In this document: positions 5,552 through 53,269 of the stretch, piece by piece
How positions within the stretch are numbered: position 1 is the first letter of the stretch
How the letters are laid out: each line of letters starts with the position of its first letter
Source: Pseudoxanthomonas gei
GTDB lineage: Bacteria > Pseudomonadota > Gammaproteobacteria > Xanthomonadales > Xanthomonadaceae
Reading direction: 5' to 3'
DNA: 64,000 nt
Assembly: GCF_010119615.1 (NCBI RefSeq)
Contig: NZ_QOVG01000007.1
Span: 124,001 to 188,000, forward strand
Notes under the pieces: generated by a model
Databases searched by the model: none
What the model saw: the letters and a program-made list of their open reading frames with translations, nothing else
What the model was told of the DNA's origin: nothing
Program-made: the position numbers and the translations under genes

Positions 5552-5590
5552 CGTTTGGCGCGCCAGACAACCAGGCGCGCATCAGCTCTT

Positions 5591-5663
5591 GTAGGAGCGA
5601 CGCGAGTCGCGAAGCTCCCATCGCCTGGGAGGTAGCCAGCTTCGCGACTCGCGTCGCTCCTAC
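5591..5663. repeat. REP pair, perfect 26-bp inverted arms
   Basis: Arms at 5591-5616 and 5638-5663 are exact reverse complements beginning GTAGGAGCGACGCGAGTCGC, separated by 21 bases. It lies between the convergent ends of tex and mnmG, where a cruciform or hairpin could act as a transcription barrier. The same family recurs near 34.9-35.5, 45.9 and (as a related variant) 25.0 and 58.3 kb. Confidence 0.9.
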
Positions 5664-5695
5664 GAAATCCGGAATCCGGAATCCGGAATCGGGGA

Positions 5696-7672: not shown

Positions 7673-7791
7673 TGCACCCGTCGTGGCAAGCGACCAGGGG
7701 CGCAGGCTGGTAATTGGAACAGGGGCCAGCCATGTGCACTGCGGGGGAGCGCCGGGGCCGATAGTCGGGGGACTATCGGCCCCATTTTTTT
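7673..7791 (+). ncRNA. Candidate RpoN-dependent small RNA, about 119 nt
   Basis: No protein-coding frame is supported here, yet the strand has a sigma-54 promoter 12 bases upstream and a Rho-independent terminator at the end. The intervening sequence folds well by eye. Outer stem TGCAC (7673-7677) pairs with GTGCA (7734-7738) and encloses two hairpins: GTCG/CGAC (7680-7683 with 7691-7694) and GGCTGG/CCAGCC (7705-7710 with 7726-7731). A G-rich linker (CGGGGGAG) then leads to the terminator hairpin. Several unpaired GGGG tracts could be interaction sites. I do not recognise the family. It resembles in concept the RpoN-dependent CrcZ or NrsZ RNAs of Pseudomonas, but no homology is claimed. Confidence 0.6.
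7754..7791 (+). terminator. Rho-independent terminator of the candidate small RNA
   Basis: A perfect 13-bp stem (7754-7766 with 7771-7783), loop GGGG, then A and seven T. It works only on the plus strand, although no plus-strand protein gene precedes it. Confidence 0.85.
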
Positions 7792-17305: not shown

Positions 17306-17382
17306 GCGCCCGTAGCTCAGCCGGATAGAGTAGTGGCTTCCGAAGCCATTGGTCGGGGGTTCGAATCCCTCCGGGCGCACCA
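17306..17382 (+). tRNA. tRNA-Arg (anticodon CCG)
   Basis: 77 nt including an encoded CCA. The acceptor arms GCGCCCG and CGGGCGC pair fully. The anticodon arm is GTGGC-TTCCGAA-GCCAT with anticodon CCG, reading CGG. The T arm GGGGG-TTCGAAT-CCCTC is canonical. A TAGAAT -10-like box lies at 17289-17294. Confidence 0.97.
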
Positions 17383-26729: not shown

Positions 26730-26758
26730 TTGACGTATCCAGCCGACCCCATTATGTT
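26730..26758 (+). promoter_or_regulatory. Sigma-70 promoter of the nrd operon
   Basis: TTGACG (26730-26735), 17 bases, TATGTT (26753-26758). It lies just before the cobalamin riboswitch, with the expected start near 26765. It is the best sigma-70 match seen in the window. Confidence 0.7.
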
Positions 26759-26767
26759 GTGGTCGTC

Positions 26768-26943
26768 GGTTCTGTTGGCTCGCATCAACGGATGAAAAGG
26801 GAAGCCGGTTCGAATCCGGCACTGCCCCGCAGCGGTATGTGGAAACGAACCCGTCATTGGCACTGAGGCATCGACCTTGGGAAGCGACGGGCTAGGAGGA
26901 AGGCACAGGCCTTTCGCGTCCACGAGTCCGAAGACCTGCCGAC
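26768..26943 (+). ncRNA. Adenosylcobalamin (B12) riboswitch
   Basis: Conserved cobalamin-aptamer elements occur in the right order. GGGAAGCCGGTTCGAATCCG with CTGCCCCGCAGCGGTA is at 26798-26837, GGCACTG at 26859-26865, GGGAAGCGACGGGCTAGGAGG near 26879-26899, and the closing GTCCGAAGACCTGCC at 26926-26940. It sits in the 5' leader of nrdA. The leader continues for 186 bases to the start codon with a GC-rich hairpin (CCGCGCG at 26946-26952 pairing with 26961-26967). No U-tract follows, so control is more likely at translation initiation or by Rho. B12 binding is expected to lower expression of this B12-independent reductase. Confidence 0.93.
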
Positions 26944-27128
26944 AGCCGCGCGAAGCACACCGCGCGGTGCCGGCCGCGGAATCTCCGGGGGGAGAAAGGC
27001 TGGTGACGCACTGCATGGCGACGATTGTCGCGGTGCCTGCGACGCCGTCTTCCCATCCTGCGATTGCACGAGGCCTGCGCTGCCTGCGAGGGACGGGCCG
27101 CTGCGTGCATCACGATGGGAGACACCCT

Positions 27129-34913: not shown

Positions 34914-34947
34914 CCTCGTCGCCGGGGGCGAAGGCGGCCTGGCTTTT

Positions 34948-35587
34948 GTAGCAGCGACGCAAATCGCGAACCACGCAGCGTGTGATTGCCGATTGGTAGG
35001 AGGCCCATGATTTCCTGGCTTCGCGACTCGCGTCGCTCCTACGACCCTTGCCAGTCGCCCATGCCGGCGCGTCTTGAAGCGCGTCGAAAGGCAACCGCGC
35101 AAGCACGGCCCCATGGACGAATCCGCGGCCCCGCCTTTTGTAGGAGCGACGCAAGTCGCGAAGCACGCAGCGTGTGATTGCCGATTGGTAGGAGGCCCAT
35201 GATTTCCTGGCTTCGCGACTCGCGTCGCTCCTACAACGCTTGCCAGGCGATCACGCCGGCGTTGCTTGAACTGCGTCGAAAGGCAACCGCGCAAGCAAGG
35301 CCCCATGGACGAATCCGCGGCCCCGCCTTTTGTAGGAGCGACGCAAGTCGCGAAGCACGCAGCGTGTGATTGCCGGTTGGTAGGAGGCCCATGATTTCCT
35401 GGCTTCGCGACTCGCGTCGCTCCTACAACGCTTGCCAGGCGATCACGCCGGCGTTGCTTGAACTGCGTCGAAAGGCAACCGCGCAAGCACGGCCCCATGG
35501 ACGAATCCGCGGCCCCTTTCGTAGGAGCGACGCAAGTCGCGAAGCACGCGGCGCATGATTGCCAATCGGGTCCGATGCTACGACCCT
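34948..35587. repeat. 192-bp tandem repeat array carrying REP pairs
   Basis: Units start at 34948, 35140 and 35332 (period exactly 192), then a 189-bp step to a partial unit at 35521-35587. Each unit holds a REP arm starting GTAGGAGCGACGCAAGTCGC, about 50 bases of spacer, the inverted arm ending GTCGCTCCTAC, and a conserved 100-bp segment containing CCCCATGGACGAATCCGCGG. The first unit is the most diverged. Because 192 is a multiple of three, long open frames run through on both strands; they are not considered genes. Confidence 0.93.
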
Positions 35588-47048: not shown

Positions 47049-47924
47049 ATGAGCCGCCCGCCACTCGACCAGCTGGATGCGTTCGTGATCGCCGCGCGCC
47101 TGGGCAACCTGACCCGCGCCGCCGAGGCCATGCATCTCACGGTCAGCGCCTTGAGCCACCGCATGCGCCTGCTCGAACAGCGCGTCGGCCATCCGCTGTT
47201 GGCGCGTGGTCCCCGCGGCGTGGCGCTGACCCCGCAGGGACAGCGGCTGTACGACGCGGTGGCCGAACCCATCGACGCCATCGAGCACGCCCTGCGCCGC
47301 CTGGGCGCGCGCACCGACAACCTGCTGACCCTCAGCCTGATCCCGTCGATGGCCACGGCCTGGCTGGTGCCGCGCCTGCCCGGTTTCCTGGCCCGGCACC
47401 CCGAGTTGGGGTTGAGCCTGCAGGCCAGCACCCACGTGGTCGATTTCGAACGCGAGCCGGTCGATGCGGCCCTGCGCCTGGGCAGCGGCCAGTGGCCGGG
47501 AGTGAGGGCCGAATTCCTGTTCGACGAATGGATCACGCCGGTGGCCAGTCCGGATTTCATCGCCCGCCACGGCAAGCCGGCGCTGGCGGCGATTCCGTCG
47601 CTGCCGCTGCTGGGCGATCCGGCCGGGCGCTGGCGCGACTGGTTCGCCGCTTTCGGCGGGGCGGCGCCGGCACGCTACGCGGCACAGTTCGACGACACCG
47701 AAACCCTGCACCAGGCCGCCGCCCAGGGCCTGGGCATCGCGCTGGCCCGGCAAACGCTGGCCCAGCCGCTGATCGACAGCGGCCGCCTGGTGCTGCTGAC
47801 CCGCAAGCGGCTGAAGGCCGAGTTCGCCCACTACCTGGTATATCCGGAACGCAGCCTGCCCCTGCCAGGCTTCCAGACCCTGCGCGGCTGGCTGTTGGAG
47901 CAGGCCGGTGTAAACGCCAAATAG
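47049..47924 (+). CDS. LysR family transcriptional regulator (GcvA/AmpR-like)
   Basis: 291 residues from the ATG at 47049, preceded by GAGG. The winged HTH is at about 5-62 (LDQLDAFVIAARLGNLTRAAEAMHLTVSALSHRMRLLEQ). The effector domain begins about 90 (LTLSLIPSMATAWLVPRLPGF) and shows the GcvA/AmpR style (DAALRLGSGQWPG, FDDTETLHQAAAQGLGIAL). It is divergent from the unknown membrane protein, which is the expected target. Effector unknown. A 21-bp repeat array starts four bases after the stop. Confidence 0.9.
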   Translation: MSRPPLDQLDAFVIAARLGNLTRAAEAMHLTVSALSHRMRLLEQRVGHPLLARGPRGVALTPQGQRLYDAVAEPIDAIEHALRRLGARTDNLLTLSLIPSMATAWLVPRLPGFLARHPELGLSLQASTHVVDFEREPVDAALRLGSGQWPGVRAEFLFDEWITPVASPDFIARHGKPALAAIPSLPLLGDPAGRWRDWFAAFGGAAPARYAAQFDDTETLHQAAAQGLGIALARQTLAQPLIDSGRLVLLTRKRLKAEFAHYLVYPERSLPLPGFQTLRGWLLEQAGVNAK

Positions 47925-47927
47925 CGA

Positions 47928-48200
47928 TGCGGATGAGGCTTTTTTGTCTTCCGGAAAGCAAAAAAGCGATTCGGTTGATGAAATTTTGTCCAACGGAAGG
48001 CGAAAAGGCTGTTCCGGAGCAGCAATTTGCTGTTCCGGAATGACTATTTTGTCTTCCGGAATGACGATTCCGCTTTCCCGAACAGCGAATCGGGATTCCC
48101 GAAAGGCTTTTTTGCCCTCCGGAAAGCCAATTCGCTATTCCCGAATCACTTTTTTGCTTTCGGGAATGGCGTTGCGGGCTTCCGGGGGTCAGTGTCGGCC
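47928..48200. repeat. Phased 21-bp repeat array, about 13 units
   Basis: Thirteen consecutive 21-bp units with no gap, starting at 47928, 47949, 47970, 47991, 48012, 48033, 48054, 48075, 48096, 48117, 48138, 48159 and 48180. Consensus begins TTCCGGAA, or the variants TTCCCGAA and TTCGGGAA; all keep the TTC..GAA dyad. The second half is a variable A/T-rich block bounded by GC dinucleotides (for example AGCAATTTGCT). The outermost units are the most diverged. It lies between the convergent LysR and DUF membrane-protein genes. The period equals two turns of B-DNA. It is not a CRISPR: no distinct spacers. Confidence 0.9.
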
Positions 48201-48244
48201 AGCCCCGCTGTTCGCATGGGCTGGTGCCGGTCCCGGGACTGCGC

Positions 48245-48685
48245 CTAACGCAGGATCAGGCGCTTGCTGCCCCACCAGGCGTACAGGCAGAACAGGAAAA
48301 GCAGTACCGCGATGACCGTGCTGGTGATCGCCATCTGCTGACCCATGACGGCACCGCCATCGGTCAACACATAGGTGTGCAACAGGCTGACCAGGAAAGC
48401 CGCCAGCGACACGGCGAACACCGGCGCCGCCGCTCTTCGCCGCAGCAACAGCAGGACGGAGGCTGCAAAGGCGGCAAACACGCCCAGCGCCCACACGAAC
48501 ATCATCCACGCGGGCAACTGCTGGTAGTAGGCGATCTGTTCGGGCGTCATGCCGGCGCTGGCCATGTAGGCCGGCCCCTGAATCCTGCCCATGACGAAGT
48601 CGAACACGCCGATGGCATTGAACAGCACTGCAATTACGCCCACCACCCACAGGTGCCAGGGTGCCTTCTTCGTAGCGGTTTGCAT
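48245..48685 (-). CDS. Small four-helix inner-membrane protein
   Basis: 146 residues from the ATG at 48685, with AAGGGGAG upstream. Four hydrophobic helices: about 10-30 (LWVVGVIAVLFNAIGVFDF), 57-80 (WMMFVWALGVFAAFAASVLLL), 85-103 and 112-135 (AITSTVIAVLLFLFCLYAWW). The conserved-looking YMASAGMTPEQIAYYQQLPAWM loop lies between helices 1 and 2. The pattern is common in unassigned proteobacterial membrane proteins. Function unknown. Confidence 0.75.
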   Translation of the reverse strand: MQTATKKAPWHLWVVGVIAVLFNAIGVFDFVMGRIQGPAYMASAGMTPEQIAYYQQLPAWMMFVWALGVFAAFAASVLLLLRRRAAAPVFAVSLAAFLVSLLHTYVLTDGGAVMGQQMAITSTVIAVLLFLFCLYAWWGSKRLILR

Positions 48686-48794
48686 GGTGCTCCCCTTGGA
48701 TGGACGTTGATCGGTCGCGCCAGATAGTCCCGCTGCCACTCCGGCGCGTCAACTTCGTGTTGGCGTTCACTTGACGCCTGGTCGCTGCGGGATG

Positions 48795-48885
48795 GTGCGA
48801 CGAGAGTGAAAAGAGGGGTTGCGACAACTGAGGCCTGCCCTGCCTCCGGAACCATGCGGCGCAATGCCCTTCGGCTACGCCGCGA
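48795..48885 (+). pseudogene. RAYT 3'-end relic with palindrome, copy 1
   Basis: This stretch matches 49820-49911 along about 85 bases, including the codons around the transposase stop (GAGAGTGAAAAG, then GACAACTGAG) and the downstream CTGCCCTGCCTCC and GCGGCGCAATGCCC palindrome. Only the last dozen codons of the transposase remain. The rest of 48686-49005 has no recognised feature. Confidence 0.6.
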
Positions 48886-48929
48886 AAACGAGTCCCCTTG
48901 TGGGATTGGGCCCTACAGGGGCTAAGGCG

Positions 48930-49000
48930 TGCACTGGTCCCGCCCCGGTAATCGCCAGGCCGCTTCGCGTCCGGCTTGGTCGAATTTCCCGGCGTAATGA
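48930..49000 (-). other. Possible degenerate attC site after the acetyltransferase cassette
   Basis: On the minus strand, AATTCGACCAAGCCGGACGC followed by GAAGCGGCC resembles the L'' and central arm of integron attC sites, but clean RYYYAAC and GTTRRRY boxes are missing. It is placed where the attC of this cassette should be. Weak evidence. Confidence 0.3.
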
Positions 49001-49005
49001 CGGCG

Positions 49006-49599
49006 CTATCGCGGCCTGAACATGCACCAGATTGTGTCGTCCCCGATACTTCCGGAGCCGGATATCGTGAACCCGCTCTGCTCATAGAACTTCACGTTTG
49101 CCGGATTTGCTGTTTCCAGGTAAACGCCAGCAGACTCCTGGTCGTAGTCCGATAGCGCACAGAACGACCGCAGTAGCTGGGCTCCTATGCCTAGGCCATG
49201 CATGGCCGGGTGTACGCCGATCGCACCAAGGTAGTAGTGCGCTGCCTGTGGTTTATATGATTCGGCAATGCAGTCATAAACAGACATTCGCTCGTCAAAT
49301 CCAGGGATGGCCTTCGCCAGAGCTTCCCAGCTCTCAGAGACTTCAGAGGGCCATTCTGGTCGTGAGGTTGTGTATCCCATCGCCGCGCCGTGAACGGCAG
49401 ACGCGTCGCGTGACAGCAGTACAGGCATGCCGAGTACGACCCGCGCCTGCATGAGTAGCGAGAAAAAGTGTCTTAAGCGGTTTGGATATTCCTGGCCAGG
49501 CTGAAGCAGGAACCGTGTTATCGGATCGGCTGAAAATGCTGAAGTCAGGCAATCCACGGCCTGATCAATATCATGCGGCTGAGCTACCGAGACCTGCAT
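49006..49599 (-). CDS. GNAT family N-acetyltransferase (cassette gene)
   Basis: 197 residues from the ATG at 49599, which lies three bases after an attC-type GTCAGGC box; a GTG at 49611 would sit inside that box. GNAT fold: DIDQAVDCLTSAFSADPITRFLL at the N-terminus, acetyl-CoA loop LGAIGVHPAMHGLGIGAQLLRS (V-x2-x-x-GxGxG/A type) and LETANPANVKFYEQSGF. GC is visibly lower than in neighbours. Likely acylates a small amine; such genes are frequent cargo of gene cassettes. It is not one of the known aminoglycoside acetyltransferases as far as I can tell. Confidence 0.8.
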   Translation of the reverse strand: MQVSVAQPHDIDQAVDCLTSAFSADPITRFLLQPGQEYPNRLRHFFSLLMQARVVLGMPVLLSRDASAVHGAAMGYTTSRPEWPSEVSESWEALAKAIPGFDERMSVYDCIAESYKPQAAHYYLGAIGVHPAMHGLGIGAQLLRSFCALSDYDQESAGVYLETANPANVKFYEQSGFTISGSGSIGDDTIWCMFRPR

Positions 49600-49601
49600 G
49601 A

Positions 49602-49660
49602 CGCCTGACACCTGAATTATGCCGACGCGCTGCGCACTGCGCGCTGGTGGGTCGGCTATT
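49602..49660 (-). other. Partial attC site
   Basis: On the minus strand the right half is intact (CATAATTCAGGTGTCAGGC, R' GTCAGGC at 49608-49602), and an inner stem GCCGAC/GTCGGC with a GCGCAGTGCGC centre is preserved. The left R'' box (expected RYYYAAC) is lost, probably through the RAYT insertion next to it. Confidence 0.55.
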
Positions 49661-49694
49661 GCGAAGAAACAACGACGCTATCCAAGTCAGATAA

Positions 49695-49858
49695 CGCCCG
49701 CACATGGATTACGTGTACTTCAACCCCGCGAAGCATGGCTTTGTCGATTGGTCGTGGATTGGCCGTATTACACCTTCCACCGATTGGTAGGACAAGGTGT
49801 ATATCCGGCAGATTGGGGTGAAAGCGTCGAGAGCGAAAAGCTGGGCTACGACGACTGA
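49695..49858 (+). pseudogene. REP-associated tyrosine transposase (RAYT) remnant, frameshifted
   Basis: Two adjacent frames encode the conserved C-terminal part of RAYT proteins. MDYVYFNPAKHGFV is at 49704-49745 in one frame. DWPYYTFHRLVGQGVYPADW to a stop at 49856-49858 is in the next. The catalytic HxH and Tyr portion is missing. Intact RAYTs (IS200-like) move REP palindromes such as those seen across this window. This relic cannot be active. Confidence 0.75.
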
Positions 49859-49884
49859 GACCTGCCCTGCCTCCCGAACTATGC

Positions 49885-49911
49885 GGCGCAATGCCCTCCG
49901 GTTATTGCGCC
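49885..49911. repeat. RAYT-adjacent REP hairpin
   Basis: Perfect 8-bp stem GGCGCAAT (49885-49892) / ATTGCGCC (49904-49911), 26 bases after the transposase stop. A degenerate copy is at 48853-48883. Confidence 0.7.
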
Positions 49912-49919
49912 CTACTGGG

Positions 49920-49975
49920 CTGCGGGCTCTACCTGCCAGCAGGAAACCCACCAGCAGTGCAAAAATTCTCTTCAT
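49920..49975 (-). pseudogene. Truncated cassette ORF with signal peptide
   Basis: The ATG at 49975 lies two bases after an attC GTTAGGC box. It encodes MKRIFALLVGFLLAGRA, a signal peptide start, before the frame runs antisense into the RAYT relic. The original cassette gene has been replaced beyond about residue 17. Confidence 0.55.
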
Positions 49976-49977
49976 GT

Positions 49978-50067
49978 GCCTAACACCTGAATTAACGCGG
50001 TCCGCCCACGCCAACTGTCGTATCAAAGCCGTAACGATGTTGGCTCAGCTTGAATGAATTGTTAAGT
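49978..50067 (-). other. attC recombination site
   Basis: 90 bp. Minus-strand reading: R'' ACTTAAC (50067-50061), L'' AATTCATTCAAGC, a long central region, then GTTAATTCAGGT and R' GTTAGGC (49984-49978). The L boxes match classical integron attC sites. It overlaps the stop of the preceding cassette gene. Confidence 0.82.
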
Positions 50068-50661
50068 CCAAGGTTGACCATACCCACGTGCCTTGGTTTG
50101 GATTTCGATGATTAGAGTGTCATTGCCGGTATAGCTTGCCAGCTCGCCCGCTGCTAGCAGTGCCAAAAGGCCGCTGATACGCAGCGCCCCAACGACTGTT
50201 TCAGTGAGATATGTGCCAGTGACGGCCTGCTGGGAGTGACGCGAGCGGACCTGGCGGATCCCGGTGTGAGTGTAATCATTCATCACCTTCCACGTGCCGG
50301 CCTGAAGCGAAGAAAGCGGCGTACCAGCTGAGCCAACAGCGGACTCCACTTGCTTCAGTAGGTCAGCGAATGGCAGATCCAATTTGCCTCTAGCGAACTT
50401 GTCGCGCTGGTCAGGCGTTGCGCAGTGCCGAAGCCATAGACCGCGCCCGATCGATTCGAATGCAACCCGCGTTAGAGCCAGCATGGAACCGTAAAGCGCC
50501 GAACTGGCGAGCAGCAACATTGACCCAACGTGCTCGAGAGTCATGTCAAAGCAGCCAATGCTCTGATAGTTAGAATCGTCCACAGGCAAGCCAACCTTCA
50601 GCCTTTCATCGAGCCATTGAAGGTGCTCGGATTGATACTGGAGTTCCTCGGAAACTTTCAT
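50062..50661 (-). CDS. Cassette-encoded protein of unknown function
   Basis: 199 residues, starting six bases after the R' box of one attC and ending inside the R'' box of the next, the exact layout of a gene cassette. Largely helical: EELQYQSEHLQWLDERL, a hydrophobic stretch GSMLLLASSALYGSMLALTRVAFESIGRGLWL (about 47-78), then DQRDKFARGKLDLPFADLLKQ and MNDYTHTGIRQVRSRHS. This resembles cassette-borne DUF proteins with a conserved Y-x-H pair. No function assigned. GC is lower than the flanks. Confidence 0.7.
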   Translation of the reverse strand: MKVSEELQYQSEHLQWLDERLKVGLPVDDSNYQSIGCFDMTLEHVGSMLLLASSALYGSMLALTRVAFESIGRGLWLRHCATPDQRDKFARGKLDLPFADLLKQVESAVGSAGTPLSSLQAGTWKVMNDYTHTGIRQVRSRHSQQAVTGTYLTETVVGALRISGLLALLAAGELASYTGNDTLIIEIQTKARGYGQPWT

Positions 50662-50666
50662 CTTGG

Positions 50667-50726
50667 GCCCAACGCCAGAATTAAGCGGAAGTGCGAAGCG
50701 GTTTCGGGTTGAATGAGTTGTTAGGC
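50667..50726 (-). other. attC recombination site
   Basis: 60 bp. Minus-strand reading: R'' GCCTAAC (50726-50720), L'' AACTCATTCAACC, short GC-rich centre, CGCTTAATTCTGGC and R' GTTGGGC (50673-50667). It begins five bases after the stop of the cassette gene at 50731. A textbook short attC. Confidence 0.88.
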
Positions 50727-50730
50727 CGAA

Positions 50731-51243
50731 TCACTGAGAAATGCTCTCATCTACTGTGACCTGCTTGCCGCCATGTGTGCTATCGCCATCTGTAACTGTG
50801 ATGCTCACTTTGTGCCCAGGAAACTCGAAATAGGTAGAGCGGAACTCTGTGCCGGGCACACGATTGATCTTTGTAGAAATGGAGGCCGATGAACCAGTAG
50901 CGGTTGTTGCGCTCTCGATTGCTGAGTAGAGCGCTTTTGCACCCTCATCTGCTCGGGCGGAGCCGTCGAAGCTACCCCAATTGCGCTGGACCCAGCTGAG
51001 GCGTCCGTTCTTGAAGGAAATGCCGCCAATTACATTTGCACTTGGCGCATTCTTATCCGAAAGAAAGAACATGTCTGGGCTTCCGGTGACTGGAATGACT
51101 CGGAAGCGGGCAGCCACCTCGGTCATAACAGAGGCCTGCGAAGTTCCAAGCTTGAAGAGCATGGGACCAACTGGAAGTTCCGCACCATTAGCGCTGCTCA
51201 AGAAGCCGAGTAAGCACAATGCAATTGCAATCAGTTTGCGCAC
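50731..51243 (-). CDS. Cassette-encoded secreted protein of unknown function
   Basis: 170 residues from a GTG at 51243, with AGGAG upstream. Signal peptide MRKLIAIALCLLGFLSSANG. The mature part shows PVGPMLFKLGTSQASVMTEVAARFRVIPV, a pattern (G.S...V...L...F) found in small secreted domains, then GISFKNGRLSWVQRNWG and a strand-rich C-terminus. It begins 13 bases after a GTTAGGC box and ends five bases before an attC. GC is clearly below that of core genes. Function unknown. Confidence 0.72.
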   Translation of the reverse strand: MRKLIAIALCLLGFLSSANGAELPVGPMLFKLGTSQASVMTEVAARFRVIPVTGSPDMFFLSDKNAPSANVIGGISFKNGRLSWVQRNWGSFDGSARADEGAKALYSAIESATTATGSSASISTKINRVPGTEFRSTYFEFPGHKVSITVTDGDSTHGGKQVTVDESISQ

Positions 51244-51256
51244 AAGTCTCCTTGCT

Positions 51257-51263
51257 GCCTAAC
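51257..51263 (-). other. Orphan GTTAGGC core site at the cluster edge
   Basis: GTTAGGC on the minus strand, placed like the R' box before the first cassette, but without recognisable L boxes upstream. It may be a truncated attC or the remains of an attI. No integrase gene is present. The rest of the gap to aceK (51264-51562) shows nothing recognisable. Confidence 0.45.
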
Positions 51264-51562
51264 TCTAGGTGGACCCCAGTAATGAGGCGTATTGAATAGT
51301 CGCTTCCTGCGGCGCGATGGGTCAATGAGGTTTTTTCTCTGACCCTTCAGATGTTCAGCGGCCTGTCGGCGGACCGCTGTGTCGGCTACTCCCAGCCCTC
51401 GGCTTCCCGTAGCCTGCCCGACCCTGATGTCCGGTTCGGAGCTGCCATCGTCAACGCGCATGGCGGCTGACGACATGCGGCGAGCAGGCTCCGGTCCCGG
51501 GTGATCTGTTCCGGTGGCGGACGTGACATGCCGCTTCCTCGCAATGGCCTTACGATACCGCC

Positions 51563-53269
51563 ATGGAAAACGCCGACATCTATGCCACCGTCATCCGCGA
51601 TGCGTTCGAGGACTACCACGCGCGCTTTGCCGACATCAGCCGGCGGGCGCGGTTGCGGTTCGAGACCCGGGACTGGGCGGCGGCGCGCATCGATGCGGTG
51701 GAGCGCATCGAGCTGTATGACCAGTGCATCGCCGAATGCATGCTGCGGCTGGAGGCCACCCTGCAGGGCCGCGCCCACGACCATGCGCTGTGGTCGGCGA
51801 TCCGCGACAGCTACGAGCGCCTGATTGGCGGGCTGATCGACCGCGAACTGTTCAAGACTTTCTACAACACGCTGACGCGCCGGTTCTTCGCCACCCAGGG
51901 CGTGGACACCGCGGTGGAGTTCGTGGCCCTGGACATCGAGCCCACTGATGCCATCACCCATCCGGTCGAACGCCACAGCTATGCGGTCTCCGAGCTGCGG
52001 CCGGTCGACACTTTCACCCGGTTGCTTGGCGACTATCGCTTCGACGTGCCCTATGCGCACCGCACCCGTTGCGCCGCGGCGATAGTGATTCGCCTGCAGG
52101 ACGACCTGGCCCACTGGGGCGAGAATCCGGTGCGCTCGGTGGAACTGCTGGAAACCGTGTTCTACCGCGAGCGCCGCGCCTACCTGATCGGGCGCGTGTT
52201 CGGCGAGCACCGCTTCTCGCCGTTCGTGATCGCGCTGGTCAACGACGCCGGCGGCCTGCGCGTGGACGCGGTGCTGACCCATCGCGCCGACGTGGTGCAT
52301 CTCTTCAGTTATTCACGCAGCTATTTCCACGCCGACCTGGGCACGGTGGGCGATGCGGTGGTGTTCCTGCGCACGCTGCTGCCGGGCAAGCCCATCGACG
52401 AGATCTACACCGTGCTGGGGCGCGCCAAGCAGGGCAAGACCGAGCGCTTCCGTACCTTCTTCCGCCACTTCGCCACCGAGAAACAGGAACTGCTGACCCA
52501 GGCCGAGGGCGAGCGCGGCATGGTCATGGCGGTGTTCACCCTGCCCAGTTACCCGCTGGTGTTCAAGGTGATCCGCGACCGCTTCGCGTACCCGAAGGAA
52601 ATGAACCGCGCGCAGGTCGAGGCCAAGTACGCGCTGGTCTTCCTGCACGACCGCGTCGGCCGCCTGGTCGATGCCCAGCCCTACCGCTTCCTGCGCTTCC
52701 CGCGCGCGCGCTTTTCCGAAGGCCTGTTGCAGGAACTGCAGGAGACCTGCGCCAATGGCATCACCGAGGATGGCGACGACATCGTCGTGCACCTCTGCTA
52801 CGTGGAACGGCGCATGCGTCCGCTCAACCTGTACGTGCGCGAGCAGTCGCCGGAAGCGGCGCGGCTGGCGGCCATCGACTACGGCCAGGCGATCAAGGAC
52901 CTGGCCCGCAACAACATCTTCCCGGGCGACATGCTGCTGAAGAACTTCGGCGTGTCCGGGCACGGCCGCGCGGTGTTCTACGACTACGACGAGCTGTGCC
53001 TGATGACCGAATGCAACTTCCGCAGCATTCCGCAGCCGCGCCACCACGAGGAGGAAATGGAGGACGGCTGGTTCTATGCGGCGCCCAACGACATCTTCCC
53101 CGAACAGTTCCCCAAGTTCCTGGGACTGTCGCCGCCGTTGATGGCCGCGCTGAAATCCGCGCACGGCGAGATTTTCGATCCGGCCTGGTGGCGCGCCCTG
53201 CAGACGCAGCTGCGCGCGGGCGAATACCCGGACACGCCGCCCTATCCGGATGCGCTGCGCCTGGCCTGA
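51563..53269 (+). CDS. aceK: Isocitrate dehydrogenase kinase/phosphatase
   Basis: 568 residues, the normal AceK length (about 575). The N-terminal regulatory domain runs to about 310. The kinase-like domain follows, with the ATP lysine region [17 protein letters not shown] and the catalytic segment [39 protein letters not shown] and [19 protein letters not shown] are strongly conserved blocks. One active site phosphorylates and dephosphorylates Icd, steering isocitrate into the glyoxylate shunt. aceA and aceB are not in this window. The gene lies just outside the cassette cluster. Confidence 0.96.

Follow-up and report, generated by a model that had tools for sequence, protein, structure and literature searches.

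Dispersed arrays of 21-bp dyads in Xanthomonadaceae and a small gene linked to them: possible sites of cooperative protein binding

What is the run of 21-bp units that stands behind a LysR-family regulator gene in Pseudoxanthomonas gei, and what kind of protein, if any, would bind it? In the stretch of DNA analysed here (64,000 nucleotides of contig NZ_QOVG01000007.1, called the window), the array occupies positions 47,949-48,187 and comprises about 11 units, each made of a TTCSSGAA core and 13 bp with an A/T centre, including a palindrome, P. The array is assigned to no strand, and the same holds for P and for the module that marks its end. A preliminary description had reported a gapless array of 13 units with a period of 21 bp, and autocorrelation confirms that the repeat is real, since self-match reaches 0.485 at lag 21, 0.582 at lag 42 and 0.523 at lag 63, compared with a maximum of 0.32 +/- 0.02 over lags 3-63 among 500 dinucleotide shuffles. 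There are indeed zero indels, but the 42-bp period is stronger than the 21-bp period. The 64-kb window has 17 copies of TTCNNGAA where 6.6 would be expected, and seven of the 17 are inside the array. The TTC..GAA dyad, which had been regarded as kept throughout the 13 listed units, is full in seven of them; the units at 47,928 and 48,180 are partial, and those at 47,970 and 47,991 each form one half of P instead of a TTC..GAA dyad. P itself (47,970-47,998; 29 bp, consensus TTCCGTTG-NNNAAANTTTNNN-CAACGGAA) lies at the LysR-side end of the array in register with the 21-bp lattice and is off consensus at one of 22 scored positions. That end is marked by a module at 47,938-47,967, a T6/A6 inverted repeat GCTTTTTTGTCTTCC / GGAAAGCAAAAAAGC around a TTCCGGAA core, whose inverted repeat (I15) has 15-nt arms that are 87% complementary; modules resembling it were seen by eye at the ends of other arrays. 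Beyond the array follows a convergent gene (48,245-48,739, minus strand), hydrophobic by eye, that has no match in NCBIfam or Pfam. Rfam at the gathering threshold finds three families in the window and none at the array, namely the sRNA asX1 (7,675-7,789), a tRNA (17,306-17,379) and a cobalamin riboswitch (26,750-26,957); one further Rfam match is at chance level.

The spacing of the units had been explained by two helical turns, which would put every dyad on the same DNA face. This argument is weakened in the window, where the A/T indicator has its power peak at exactly 7.0 bp (43.2) and is at noise (0.5) at 10.5 bp. Bending by A-tracts phased at 10.5 bp was rejected because of this noise level; among the arrays, L033 is the exception, with a power of 10.2 at 10.5 bp. 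The other explanation offered at the outset, a coding repeat giving a heptad-repeat peptide, started from forward frames that appeared largely open. Two of the six frames do run open through the window array, but none of the six is free of stops across all of 12 arrays, entropy does not differ between codon positions (1.08, 1.07 and 1.11 bits), so that the codon-position bias looked for is absent, and the two frames scanned against Pfam have no match. The probability of a coding repeat is thus practically negligible.

The LysR product had been named as a candidate binder. Its gene (47,049-47,924, plus strand; start set where relatives align) is GcvA-like, matches an NCBIfam subfamily with a score under the cut-off of that model, and has its stop 24 bp before the first full core. 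The genus yielded 28 such LysR loci for comparison, which are the one in the window, one cut by a contig end, two that could not be parsed and 24 others that were assessed. In these 24 orthologous loci the 280-450 bp that follow the stop codon hold no array, on which ground the LysR protein was dropped as binder; the LysR neighbour is probably incidental to the array. By eye, an aceK-like frame closely follows the LysR gene in 22 of the 24 loci, whereas in the window aceK starts at 51,563, so that the window carries about 3.6 kb extra compared with its relatives. This extra DNA (48,200-51,560) has a lower GC content (0.58-0.59) and contains minus-strand genes, among them those for a GNAT acetyltransferase and a DUF6988 protein, with motifs like GCCTAAC...AATTAA...GTTAGGC between the genes, which we take to resemble integron attC sites; it is possibly a cassette cluster. 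It also includes an 81-nt direct repeat, 85% identical (48,797-48,877 and 49,824-49,904). Elsewhere in the window, a tandem array at 34,943-35,563 has a 192-bp unit with TAGGAGCGACGCAAGTCGCGAAGC, a palindrome-like dispersed repeat. A similar copy lies at 5,590-5,665, and elements of about 76 bp related to it have many matches in genome G035.

Is the array confined to this locus? Among genomes of the genus the exact three-unit pattern was found in 3 of 38, and among those of the order in 6 of 397, the own genome being counted in both, and all six belong to one family, the Xanthomonadaceae. A family profile built from 31 three-unit windows matched 132 of 395 family genomes, with about 12 candidates scored per genome. 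Thirty profile loci inspected among the matches listed comprised nine arrays of the window's type (lattice arrays), 19 heptamer arrays of GGGAATC/GGGATTC and two that are neither; 40 further loci gave 14 lattice and 26 heptamer arrays. Since one site is common to both locus sets, the heptamer arrays total 44, and the split between the two types was made manually from lag values and sequence. A profile search in related genomes had been proposed in the preliminary description; in all, 32 lattice arrays were obtained from 12 Xanthomonadaceae genomes of eight genera, including a short one (L016) and one with another core (L183). Most of them were found by patterns or a profile that assume 21-bp core spacing, so their period is ascertained; the arrays of G191, found via P, and the array at the serA site of G003, found via synteny, are free of this assumption. 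The window's genome has seven arrays, that of the window and six further ones, in convergent, tandem and divergent settings. Gene prediction at 16 arrays placed 13 in intergenic DNA, and predicted frames overlap the other three, L012, L033 and L041. Dyad-symmetric arrays form a dispersed family, and the one in the window is a solo copy. A pattern scan of named genomes returned at least 112 stretches; among the 80 matches listed, three are from Xanthomonadaceae, and many of the stretches from outside the family have a 63-bp repeat. The array has no blastn match in plasmids and phages, and no description of 21-bp arrays was found in the literature as covered by open-licence papers.

The geometry of the family deviates from the strict 21-bp phasing first assumed. 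Across 14 arrays, 85 of 87 core-to-core steps between exact cores are multiples of 21, the others being one of 20 and one of 41 bp. Outside this set, the serA array of G003 has one 20-bp and one 22-bp step among six, and in array L212 of G462 seven of 18 steps are 20 bp, in addition to single steps of 60 and 80 bp. Thus out-of-phase indels in relatives, which had been named as evidence against the array as described, do occur in part, and phasing is not absolute because 20-bp steps exist, commonly in one genome. In the lattice array L248 (G462:C1:2,795,046-2,795,282), three steps of 21 bp and one of 20 bp make up a higher-order unit of 83 bp. For the seven arrays of the window's genome the mean self-match is 0.707 at lag 42, 0.606 at lag 21 and 0.310 at lag 7. 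The units vary throughout, with CG, CC and GG mixed at the core centres, and most of the 21 positions are biased, not the core alone; a CRISPR array, which has one fixed repeat and unrelated spacers, looks different.

The units are symmetric as well. Compared with column permutation, unit dyad symmetry is significant (p <= 0.05) in 15 of 17 arrays, with a z of 5.2 in the window; the serA array of G003 (five units, p 0.53) and the array of G206 (p 0.061) did not pass. P-like sites (at most 6 of 22 positions off) occur in 11 of the 32 arrays and are absent from 117,744 bases of sequence obtained by shuffling each locus once, and in all eight arrays that combine a P-like site with a core cluster (window, L009, L012, L015, L281, L036, L245 and L219) the distance between the two is a multiple of 21. 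P is common to several genera, and P itself repeats at 42 bp in the two arrays of G191, whose discovery did not rely on a period. With at most one mismatch P was found in four of 395 family genomes, the match in G498 lying outside any array, and it has no match in viral contigs. The symmetry and the recurrence of the lattice across genera speak for the cooperative binding of a dimer that was suggested at the beginning, while the argument from two helical turns has become weaker. Judged from the DNA sequence, cooperative binding by a dimeric protein is the best reading of the arrays, with a probability of roughly 0.43; it is weakened because G462 tolerates many 20-bp steps and because two arrays (G003 serA and G206) fail the symmetry test.

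The main alternative is a satellite derived from heptamers. GGGAATC heptamer repeats have been described in Xanthomonas (Rehm et al., 2015; PMC4692102), and as far as the available text of that paper goes, they and the lattice arrays are alike in being intergenic and dispersed within the same bacterial family, in a 7-bp alternation of A/T and G/C, and in a length and sequence that vary between related species. It is the 7-bp alternation peak that links the arrays to these xanthomonad repeats. The lattice would then be a functionless, higher-order form of GGGAATC heptamer repeats, arisen via slippage and copying between loci, with symmetry and period as by-products and the link to a gene (see below) due to descent. 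A/T power at 7.0 bp is 36.8-64.9 in the seven lattices of the window's genome and 43.6-57.3 in four heptamer arrays; three heptamer arrays are also present in the window's genome. Some heptamer arrays (L238, L239, L264, L265, L273 and L279) score lag 21 as high as lag 7, as would be expected of intermediates. A short run of the heptamer AATCCGG, akin to the GGGAATC repeats, lies in the window at 5,666-5,690. Measured by the features of GGGAATC/GGGNATC repeats, the window array has the 7-bp alternation but lacks tandem heptamer identity, as its self-match at lag 7 is 0.31 compared with 0.485 at lag 21. Dyad symmetry was detected in none of eight heptamer arrays (p 0.18-0.90), a test that has little power with seven columns, and in the arrays of G191 the 42-bp pitch is retained although power at 7 bp is small (0.6 and 6.5). 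Furthermore, the unit of 21/42 bp with dyad symmetry, the mixed G/C core, a linked gene and P, the last common to several genera, set the lattice arrays apart from the GGGAATC heptamers as the available text presents them. A functionless satellite is therefore considered unlikely.

The linked gene came from an all-against-all comparison of flanking frames (about 1.5-2.2 kb inspected per array), by which one orthologous gene adjoins arrays in six genomes; two more such genomes appeared among the 40 further loci. Thus, a gene for a product of about 155 amino acids lies beside eight of the 32 lattice arrays, in eight of 12 genomes and six genera, but near none of the 44 heptamer arrays, for which 1.5-2.2 kb were seen on each side. 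It was not seen in the inspected array flanks of G003, G049, G206 and G338 and has no match within the 64-kb window. That one array in each of these eight genomes is tied to the same gene is a new observation. The array is always on the 3' side of the gene (8/8); in seven of the eight cases a terminator-like hairpin was seen by eye between gene and array, and in six (G000, G191, G316, G606, G520 and G541) the far end of the array has a T6 tract or P. A ribosome-binding site precedes the gene by eye, and the other members of the protein are 52-73% identical to that of G000. The protein family is not a recognised one: five members gave no Pfam or NCBIfam match at E values up to 1, PHROG yielded weak matches of unknown function only (E 0.26 and 0.52), and no recognised DNA-binding domain was found. 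Profile matches in the PDB (best E 0.0094) were judged to be chance. A single-sequence model is all-helical with a pLDDT of 49.6, too low to rely on. The protein has no tblastn match in plasmids and phages at E 0.01 (with relaxed settings a single plasmid match appeared, at E 3) and none in viral contigs at the cut-off applied, and its profile matches none of the 80 listed pattern stretches except L062, the Lysobacter sp. Root690 locus known beforehand. An ORF comparison of 16-kb regions in seven of the eight gene-linked genomes has the linked gene as the sole gene common across genera. An 80-aa gene labelled XAC0095 family by NCBIfam lies upstream of it in G541 and G606, and a similar frame occurs in G316, all three genomes being of one genus.

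A gene next to one array and further arrays elsewhere could also mean a repeat family mobilised by this gene, with gene and array as the autonomous and solo arrays as the non-autonomous form. Besides the gene-linked array, solo arrays are present in six to seven of the eight genomes (G000, G191, G316, G383, G462, G541 and G606; none among those fetched from G520), some with the same end module, and the gene neighbourhoods differ between genera. Presence and absence at orthologous sites point in the same direction, as they do for a satellite: the sister genome G003 likewise carries an array of 21-bp period at the serA site, built from a different unit (lag-21 match 0.61), while G035, G045, G049 (Pseudoxanthomonas yeongjuensis) and G048 lack one there, and G003 has no array at two other orthologous sites. 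Orthologous sites gain and lose arrays readily. Against mobilisation, there is no match to a transposase family, the insertion boundaries at the serA site are unclean with no target duplication seen, and the only near-identical pair of modules compared, the two gene-array copies of Lysobacter, lies in the same wider locus. Mobilisation by the linked gene is distinctly unlikely, and the link of gene and array may go back to one ancestral locus kept by descent. At the serA site, where G000 carries its array, G035 (L186) and G045 (L187) have another short repeat-like element with the ends CCCCCTTT...AAAGGGGG.

Arrays of one genome resemble each other. For 28 of the 32 arrays from 11 genomes (L016, L183, L202 and L207 were left out), likeness is 0.443 within (45 pairs) versus 0.359 between genomes (333 pairs), with p = 0.0002 by label permutation, kinship and base composition being uncontrolled; within-genome likeness may come in part from either of them. 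The gene-linked array likewise resembles the arrays of its own genome (0.440 versus 0.360). By substitution class, transitions account for 33% inside arrays and 46% in flanks that include coding DNA.

The symmetry could act in RNA or extruded DNA instead of as a protein site, with hairpins serving as a stabiliser or a bidirectional terminator. Compared with dinucleotide shuffles, folding is better on both strands (z -8.4 and -7.7), several real arrays out-fold column-shuffled ones with z down to -3.7 in the window, and the hairpin before the array in seven of the eight gene-linked cases resembles a terminator. In the flanks of the core dyads, pairing is slightly above that of shuffled sequence (59 dyads, total z 2.0; six of 13 positions with z 2.0-3.5), a weak positive covariation by which the half-sites are slightly less than fully independent. 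However, permutation of whole units leaves the folding energy as it is (seven arrays, both strands, z -1.2 to 1.9), covariation in 81 spacer dyads is absent or negative at the three centres (total z of -3.1, -1.2 and -0.9), and one array lies between divergent genes. Structured RNA or a cruciform is therefore highly unlikely.

Cooperative binding thus remains the preferred reading, and dispersed dyad arrays bound in this way, possibly by the product of the linked gene, are a possibility that we hold just short of even. A dimeric DNA-binding protein would bind neighbouring dyads cooperatively at the 21-bp pitch. Most economically it would be the product of the linked gene of about 155 codons, binding would perhaps nucleate at P, and the solo arrays would be further docking sites in the same chromosome. 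Against this reading count the ready gain and loss of arrays at their sites, the four genomes in whose array flanks the gene was not seen, the slight dependence between half-sites, and a protein in which no DNA-binding domain is recognised. Binding might serve chromosome organisation, insulation between genes or the spread of arrays. The gene beside one array, together with the likeness of arrays within a genome, makes a specific protein-DNA pairing directly testable.

Known systems share some of these traits. RAYT genes have their own repeat (REPIN) beside them and dispersed copies of the repeat elsewhere, and similarly the linked gene is beside an array in eight of 12 genomes with solo arrays elsewhere; but the linked gene has no match to a Y1-type transposase, and the arrays are long and phased, not short palindromes. 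ParB has parS sites and ParR has parC repeats, so that phased dyad or tandem sites beside the gene of a small protein, with further dispersed sites in the case of ParB, are comparable; with regard to the partition NTPase of ParABS and ParMRC, the ORF comparison of the 16-kb regions of seven genomes gave no neighbour gene that is common across genera, and the linked protein family is unrecognised. The TAACTGA repeats of Beggiatoaceae are dispersed intergenic tandem heptamers, mostly just before start codons (PMC4679880). They share the dispersed intergenic location with the lattice arrays, and the available text of that paper names neither a linked gene nor a dyad for them.

Tentatively, the Xanthomonadaceae may thus possess an undescribed protein-plus-DNA-array system, consisting of a small, probably helical protein family, its own 21/42-bp lattice and co-evolving docking arrays, which is possible rather than probable and may, for example, be a single-gene chromosome organiser. 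Repeats scattered through bacterial genomes tend to be dismissed as junk or as structural; here such repeats are tied to a gene. The lattice arrays also give a starting point for understanding the xanthomonad heptamer repeats between genes, the role of which is left open in the available text of Rehm et al. (PMC4692102).
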